DNA of 22,330 nucleotides from a virus. Below the pieces are notes generated by a model. The model did not search any database. It saw only the letters and a program-made list of their open reading frames with translations, and was not told the DNA's origin. The stretch spans positions 1 to 22,330 of IMG/VR virus record IMGVR_UViG_3300022562_000331. The stretch is one strand, 5' to 3'. Numbering within the stretch: the first letter of the stretch is position 1; each line of letters opens with the position of its first letter. Shown here in pieces: positions 20,068 to 22,330 of the stretch. A program made the position numbers and the translations under genes.

Positions 20068-22330
20068 TGCCGAATGACCTTTCGTTTCTCTGGGGTGGAA
20101 CCCCGGCCAACACCACCGAAGAAGATCTCACCGTAGCCCTCAATCCGGCTCCGGCGCCCAAGACGATCTTCGAGGGGCCTGCCATCCCGGATCAGACTGC
20201 AGCGGACATCCCCGCTGCAATCCCGACCGAGGCACCCGCTGCCGGACCTTCTGCGGTAGCGGAGAGTCGGCCCTCCGCTGCTGTGGCTGGCCCTGTGCCA
20301 GGCGGCGGGGCTGTCCCGGTCGCGGCGCCGGAACCTGCACAGTCCCCGCAGGCGTCCGGCGCCGTTGCCCCTGCGCCGGTTCCACCTAATCAGGTGGAAG
20401 CGGCGGCTCCACCGGCCCCCCAGGTTACGGCGTCGACCCCCGACATGTCGTTCCTGTGGTCTGGCACGTCGCCGGCTCCCGCGGTGAACGTGCAGGAGGG
20501 GACCGCGGCAACAGACCCCGCGCAGATCCCCGGGCTGGTGGAGTCGCTCTATTCCCAGATGGCCCCCAAGTTCGACCTGCCCGAGGTGGAGGTCGCCGGG
20601 GACCGCAACACGATGCTCGGCAATATCGCCCGCGGCGCCGCGGGCCGGGTGACCGGCATCATCGGCGGGCTGTTCGGCCTCGCCGACACCTTCGACACAT
20701 GGCTCTCTCTGAGCGGCATCCCCGGCAGCGGGCGCGTTCAACTGTGGGACGAGCAGGGCGACTTCAGCCCCTCGTACATGGACGCCGAGGAGTTCGACAA
20801 ATACCTGCGCGACACCAAGGGGCAGGAAGGTTTCGGCCGGCAGGTCGCGAACTGGTTCTACAATTTCGGCGAGAACGCCCTCGGCTACCAGCCGGACCGC
20901 CTGACCTCGGACCCGATCGGGGACCTGAGCGAAGGCAAGATCATGACCGCGCTGGGCTGGGCCTTCGAGACGGGCGCGGTCAGCATCACCGACATGGTGG
21001 CGGCGGTCTCGAACCCTGCAGTCTACTGGGGCTCGCTCATCGACGAGATGGCGCAGGAGCGCATCGCGGCCAACGACGCCGTCGGCCCCACGGCCGTGGA
21101 CCTCGCGATCGCCACGGCGGGCGCGGGCGCGCAGGCATACCTTGAGAAGCTGGGCGCCGAGGGCGTCCTGAGTGCCGGGTGGAAGGAGGCGTTCAAGAAG
21201 AACGCCCTGAAGACGACCCTCAAGGAGCTGGCCAAGTCGGGAGCGCGTGCCGGAGCGGGCGAGGCCGCCACTGAAGGCGCGCAGAACATCGCCCAGGACG
21301 TAGCGCAGGGCATCGGCACCAAGAAAGGCATCGACTGGGAGGGGATGCCCAAGCGCACCGCCGCGTCGATGCTGGCCGGCGCCGTCTTCGGTGGCGTTGC
21401 CGGTGGCGCGATGGACCTTTACCGCGCCCGCTCGGAGAGCATCGAGAGCGGCGGCGACCCCAACGCCAAGTCGGATACCTCGTCGGCGTCCGGGAACTTC
21501 GGCTTCACCGACGGCACCTGGCTCGACATGATGAAGGGGCTGGGGATCGACGACGGCAACAAGTCGCGCGAAGAACTCCTGGCCATGAAGAACGACCCCG
21601 CGCTGCAGAAGCGGGCGTTCGACCTTCTCACGGAGCGCAACGCGCAGACGCTGGCCGGGGCGGAGATCTCGCCGACCTTCGAGAACCTCCGCATGGCCCA
21701 CTTCCTCGGGGCCGGCGACGCGATCAAGGTGCTGAAGGCGGCGCCTGACACGCCGCTGGAGTCGCTCCTCTCCGAGCAGGTGATCGAGGCGAACAAGTCG
21801 CTCCTCGCGGGCAAGACCGCCGGGGACATGGTCGAGCTGGTGCGGGCGCAGCTGGAAGGCGGCCCCAACGTCAACGACGGGCGCCGGGCGCTGCACCGCG
21901 AGGCCGGGTACGCAACGACGGGCGCCGGGCGCTGCACCGCGAGGCCGGGTACGCCCCGCCGGAGGAGGACGTCGCCGTGGCGGCGGTCGAACCTCCCGAG
22001 GAGACGCCGAAGGAGGGTGCCGCCGCGCTGCCCCCGGACAGCGTGCTGAGCGACAACGTCAGCGCAACTCTCGATGAGGAGGCGCAGCAGCGGGTCACCG
22101 AGGCCGTCACCAAGGTCCGCGAGCAGCAGGCGGCCGAGGATGCGGCCCGCGCCTCGCAGCCCAACTACGTGGCTCAGCCTGCGGCGCCCCTGCTCACGAC
22201 GGCTGCTGCCAGCGGGCGGGCCGGGGATCAGGCGCGCGAGGTTGCCCGTCGGGTGGCGGACGCTCTCAAGCCCGCGTCCGAAATCCTCCTGCGTAACCGC
22301 TCGGCGGAACTCCAGGACCTCATCGACAAG
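20067..22330 (+). CDS. Ejection protein with lytic transglycosylase domain; frameshifted and running off the window
   Basis: ATG 20067 is chosen over GTG 20064. SFLWGGT (6-12) and SFLWSGT (128-134) flank a Pro/Ala-rich stretch. Residues about 455-590 match a lysozyme-like SLT transglycosylase: SIESGGDPNAKS with catalytic Glu460, FGFTDGTWLDMM, and MAHFLGAGDAIKVL. Such domains locally open peptidoglycan during DNA entry. A perfect 41-bp tandem duplication at 21873-21954 breaks the frame. As read, the frame ends at 22049 after 44 Arg/Pro-rich out-of-frame residues. With one copy removed, the frame continues PPEEDVAVAAVEPPEE and stays open to 22330. The 3' end lies beyond the window. Confidence 0.78.
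20382..20397. repeat. Dispersed 16-bp dyad, copy 5 (CCACCT-AATC-AGGTGG)
   Basis: It lies in the Pro/Ala-rich linker of the transglycosylase protein, between the two SFLW motifs. The inverted symmetry extends to 8-bp arms (TTCCACCT and AGGTGGAA, 20380-20399). It is identical to the minus-strand reading of copy 2 in the small terminase gene, and both encode PPNQV. Confidence 0.75.
21873..21954 (+). repeat. Perfect 41-bp tandem duplication causing a frameshift
   Basis: Bases 21873-21913 and 21914-21954 are identical and adjacent. The unit begins AACGACGGGCGCC and ends CCGGGTACGC. A 41-base insertion shifts the frame by two. Collapsing it joins NDGRRALHREAGYA directly to PPEEDVAV and leaves a stop-free frame of about 125 codons to the window end. 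It may be a true mutation or an assembly error. Confidence 0.9.

Follow-up and report, generated by a model that had tools for sequence, protein, structure and literature searches.

A perfect 41-bp tandem duplication breaks the frame of a putative giant polyvalent gene in a virus contig

Polyvalent or DarB-like giant phage proteins carry a C-terminal PLxRFG domain (NF032893; Iyer et al. 2017, PMC5512222), and lysozyme and transglycosylase domains occur in them, where they have been suggested to aid in breaching peptidoglycan at entry (PMC5512222). A cell-wall enzyme of the same type, the lytic transglycosylase gp144 of phiKZ, is a stand-alone endolysin. Short tandem duplications inside genes are also documented. 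De novo duplications in the bacterial gene penA arise without long flanking repeats, keep the frame and reverted at 9.3e-7 and 3.6e-5 (PMC4169377), and de novo or microhomology-mediated duplications of this kind are also known from fission yeast ssp1 (reviewed in PMC13207564). In large-scale work, low coverage and assembly are known to make frameshifted pseudogenes (PMC11017572).

We analysed a linear virus record of 22,330 bp (IMGVR_UViG_3300022562_000331; the whole stretch is called the window here). Its late-gene cluster holds the terminase large subunit, portal, major head protein, internal virion protein and N-acyltransferase, and its portal shares 50.6% identity with the portal of Rhizobium phage RHph_TM27A and 71% with that of one IMG/VR contig. 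In TM27A, the N-acyltransferase is followed by EVB29_087, _086 and _085 (2,307 aa). The N-acyltransferase-like gene of the window (16725-17219; PHROG 4470, E 3e-23) lies amid late virion genes and has the same place in TM27A. The features at the end of the window are as follows.

20067-22049, + strand: frame as it stands, opening as a putative polyvalent/DarB-like giant protein and running after the array into Arg/Pro nonsense up to TGA 22047-22049 (ORF, codon log-odds, hmmsearch)
21117-21440, + strand: aa 351-458 of the frame, matched by an N-terminal profile of the giant proteins from 12 relatives (hmmsearch, E 4e-11)
21438-21851, + strand: lytic transglycosylase domain, phiKZ gp144-like, aa 458-595 (PHROG 4067, E 1e-19; 3bkh, E 5.5e-8)
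21872-21912, + strand: copy 1 of the 41-bp unit (Tandem Repeats Finder, direct comparison)
21913-21953, + strand: copy 2, identical, with the match prolonged one base by 21954 (Tandem Repeats Finder, tandem scan)
21954-22330, + strand: coding continuation in frame 2, linker-like and rich in Pro, Glu and Ala, open to the contig end (log-odds +0.32, no stop)
21963-21979, + strand: AGGAGG (21963-21968) and GTG (21977-21979) in the downstream frame, a possible, unproven internal start (motif match)

Direct comparison shows two identical, adjacent 41-mers, and Tandem Repeats Finder gives the array as 21872-21954 with a period of 41, 100% matches and 0 indels. The run of identity is 42 bases long because base 21954 (c) is the first base of the unit again. 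Hence, the perfect duplication that the first-pass annotation had placed at 21873-21954 is the same array in another, equally valid register that differs by one base. The unit is not a simple repeat, and the array consists of only two copies and one base rather than a multi-copy tract. It is the sole exact tandem duplication with a period of at least 10 in the whole window, and the longest tandem period in 60 Markov-shuffled windows was 10. Hence, the 41-bp array is not a product of chance.

The unit length leaves a remainder of 2 on division by three, and we found that the coding signal moves from frame 0 to frame 2 at the array, which bears out the two-base shift claimed earlier. Before the array, codon log-odds per codon were +0.36 in frame 0 (+0.52 across the last 370 bp) and below -0.6 in the other + frames; after it, frame 2 scored +0.32 and frame 0 -0.72. 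Frame 0, read from ATG 20067 (or GTG 20064), ends at TGA 22047-22049, and its translation turns rich in Arg and Pro and stops at 22049, as had been described. Frame 2 is without a stop from 21749 to the contig end at 22330, and removal of one copy gives the restored frame that had been predicted (PPEEDVAVAAVEPPEE), open to the contig end and with the positive coding signal of frame 2. A sliding frame plot of the window shows no second frame switch inside any confident gene. Hence, the duplication is the only lesion that breaks a frame, and the late-gene cluster is ordinary otherwise. Programmed -1 frameshifting at the array was rejected, as no in-phase slippery heptamer (X XXY YYZ) lies between 21740 and 22049, in the overlap of the two frames.

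The broken gene was identified by profile searches. With the first 480 aa of the relatives' giant proteins as a profile, hmmsearch matched aa 351-458 of the window frame, and the protein of one related record (G016) matched the frame with an E of 2.2e-6. BLASTP of the window frame against TM27A_085 returned nothing significant, the relation being visible by profile searches, and Pfam and NCBIfam returned no significant family for the frame. In all 12 relatives, TM27A included, the corresponding gene is a single unbroken frame of 1,839-2,661 aa, figures that are lower bounds as a few copies are truncated by the border of the stretch analysed or of the contig. The copies of TM27A and G016 close with the C-terminal PLxRFG domain (NF032893), and DarB-like PHROG 10089 also gives a match; the C-terminus of the window gene would lie beyond the contig end at 22330. 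Taken together, the match at aa 351-458 and the long PLxRFG/DarB-like genes of the relatives indicate that the window gene is, at the level of sequence, the 5' part of a polyvalent (DarB-like) giant phage protein. It resembles these proteins in its N-terminal region, in its place in the late-gene cluster and in its transglycosylase domain, a known component of the class. Unlike these proteins, for which one long frame (about 2,000 aa or more) is expected, the window frame is broken at 21872-21953, after about 600 aa, and the contig stops short of any C-terminal domain. The gene had been called a transglycosylase-bearing ejection protein; the transglycosylase stands, and polyvalent/DarB-like giant protein is the better name for the rest.

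Two of the relatives' giant proteins carry further domains. In the 2,658-aa protein of G016 (L093:2409-10385), aa 867-977 form a GGDEF domain, which is diguanylate cyclase-like; the PF00990 match (E 1.9e-6) passes the curated cut-off. RHph_TM27A EVB29_085 (L003:7480-14403), which is annotated as hypothetical, has an inorganic-pyrophosphatase-like domain at aa 860-994 (PF18823, E 6e-48) along with its PLxRFG C-terminus.

The transglycosylase assignment rests on fold and motif: besides PHROG 4067, the region matches the solved structures 3bkh (phiKZ gp144) and 9xps with an E of 5e-8, similarity to 3bkh extends over 127 residues, and the ESGG motif with the catalytic Glu begins at aa 460 of the window frame. 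Unlike phiKZ gp144, the enzyme here is a domain within a giant protein. About seven codons lie between the end of the match (21851) and the array, which opens at 21872, where the Pro/Glu/Ala-rich linker begins. As the sequence stands, the enzyme domain would be untouched and the remaining protein would be lost, and in relatives the part beyond the break comfortably exceeds 1,000 residues and takes in the conserved C-terminal domain. The earlier proposal that the break lies just past the transglycosylase, keeping the enzyme and losing the remainder, is thus supported by the domain end and by the relatives' long frames. It had also been asked whether homologues end at this point; the 12 relatives continue, and a natural protein end at the array was rejected.

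The cell-wall enzyme is placed differently in the relatives. In the window it lies inside the giant gene, and in relatives it lies inside the preceding gene, as a transglycosylase in L092:2601-6713 and as Phage_lysozyme2 in TM27A EVB29_086 (L003:14481-17369). The corresponding 440-aa gene of the window has no cell-wall enzyme domain in profile searches.

We looked for a comparable copy of the site and found none by phage DNA search, by the exact 27-mer of the unit or by genome_contigs search, nor in viral_contigs protein scans that used the N-terminal part, the two genes before it or the downstream part, nor among 32 related records compared with the downstream part; the collections searched may omit records very near the window, which qualifies this absence of a close relative at the site. 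The phage DNA search and the exact 27-mer likewise gave no second allele or second record of the site. Across 804 kb of relatives' records, nearly every exact tandem repeat with a period of at least 24 has a unit length that is a multiple of three; the only exceptions are one of 28 bp and one of 29 bp, both of which straddle frame ends. Hence, an exact out-of-frame copy inside a long gene is unusual and looks unpurged. Judged from its letters, such a perfect copy within a long coding gene is either newly arisen or absent from the virus.

Several related IMG/VR contigs start or end inside exact tandem repeats (L098:1-53, L099:1-90, L101:15634-15688, L103:1-139 and L105:5433-5531), as expected if assemblies break there.

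Our main reading, to which we give a probability of about 0.8, is that a one-off, very recent 41-bp tandem duplication, itself functionless, breaks the frame of a giant polyvalent gene. Counted in its support were the lack of divergence between the copies, the sole frame switch in the window's confident genes, the unbroken frame of the relatives, the rarity of out-of-frame exact repeats in their records, the position 376 bp from the end of the contig and the known assembly-made pseudogenes (PMC11017572). The duplication could have come from slippage on the template or from a strand switch, with a single base of junction homology. The event would have taken place either in the virus, whose genome would then probably be defective or a decaying provirus, or at a technical step, during the preparation of the library or in assembly close to the contig end. 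Translated as it stands, the gene would yield some 600 normal residues and then Arg/Pro nonsense up to the stop at 22049, with the remainder lost. Apart from the single base of junction homology, the flanks differ, which falls short of a microhomology of several bases at the duplication ends. Single-strand folding at the array is no better in energy than that of shuffles, and there is no perfect inverted repeat with separate arms of at least 6 bp at the array; hairpin-driven slippage was therefore rejected. Two observations would count against the main reading: a de Bruijn graph resolves the two-copy form rather than collapsing it at k of at least 43, and AGGAGG precedes GTG 21977, so that a separate downstream product is possible.

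Most likely, the duplication reflects a one-off mutation or else a fault of assembly, not a functional switch. A purely technical origin is slightly favoured, at a little under even odds: the two copies would exist in the assembled contig only, either because a read was chimeric or because ends overlapping by about 41 bp were joined untrimmed, and the virus would have one copy. The copies are exact and unique in the window, and 376 bp separate them from the contig end, a nearness to an end shared by only about 4% of the window; they break the frame of a gene that relatives keep whole, and 41 is a k-mer size in older MEGAHIT defaults. The two-copy form is resolved at k of at least 43; therefore, some reads or a faulty join must have made it. 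The array, however, is not at the very contig end but is followed by 376 bp of good coding sequence. Somewhat less probable is a real defective allele: the duplication would be present in the sequenced virus, or in a decaying provirus, and the giant protein would be made in truncated form. The penA cases document that such events occur in bacterial genes (PMC4169377), and a provirus state is conceivable, since the closest named phage record has both an integrase and an att site; yet every other confident gene of the window looks intact, and a strongly harmful allele should be rare in a consensus contig. The 41-bp array is, like the penA and ssp1 duplications, short, exact, two-copy, intragenic and in principle revertible. 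It differs in breaking the frame, which penA duplications keep, and in having only 1 bp of junction homology and no known revertant or second allele.

Improbable is gene fission, in which the duplication is tolerated and GTG 21977 starts translation of the downstream part, so that the transglycosylase protein and the remainder are made separately. The break does fall between domain and linker, and AGGAGG is rightly spaced, eight bases before the GTG, with an equally good match at just 1 of the 178 internal start codons of the window's genes; the motif was noticed post hoc, however, the same letters arise from Glu-Glu codons, and none of the 12 relatives is split here. That a real, tolerated duplication represents a recent natural fission of the giant polyvalent protein, restarted at GTG 21977 and still reversible by slippage, is more doubtful still. 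Least probable, and very improbable in itself, is the phase-variable slip that the first-pass annotation had raised, in which loss and gain of a unit would turn the full-length protein on and off. Short exact duplications can revert, but positive evidence for a switch was not found: the array has two copies only, its folding is unremarkable, record searches gave no alternative allele and relatives keep the gene whole. With 1 bp of junction homology there is also no flanking repeat to regenerate the duplication; hence, it is unlikely to re-form easily here.

The case is an ordinary one and serves chiefly as a caution. Through an exact, frame-breaking duplication close to a contig end, the beginning of a giant phage gene comes to resemble a short transglycosylase gene, and an automatic annotation would register it as one. 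If the duplication is proven real, it would show a giant phage protein that was naturally broken, or split, at the boundary of a domain.

Two imperfect tandem repeats also lie in the window. At 7727-7803, an imperfect (92%) in-frame 39-bp duplication falls in an Ala/Pro-rich stretch of a 330-aa gene (7597-8589), an older, frame-preserving counterpart of the 41-bp event. At 1509-1662, a diverged 63-bp repeat (2.4 copies, 78% matches) lies in a 911-aa frame (68-2803) at the lower-GC end of the window.
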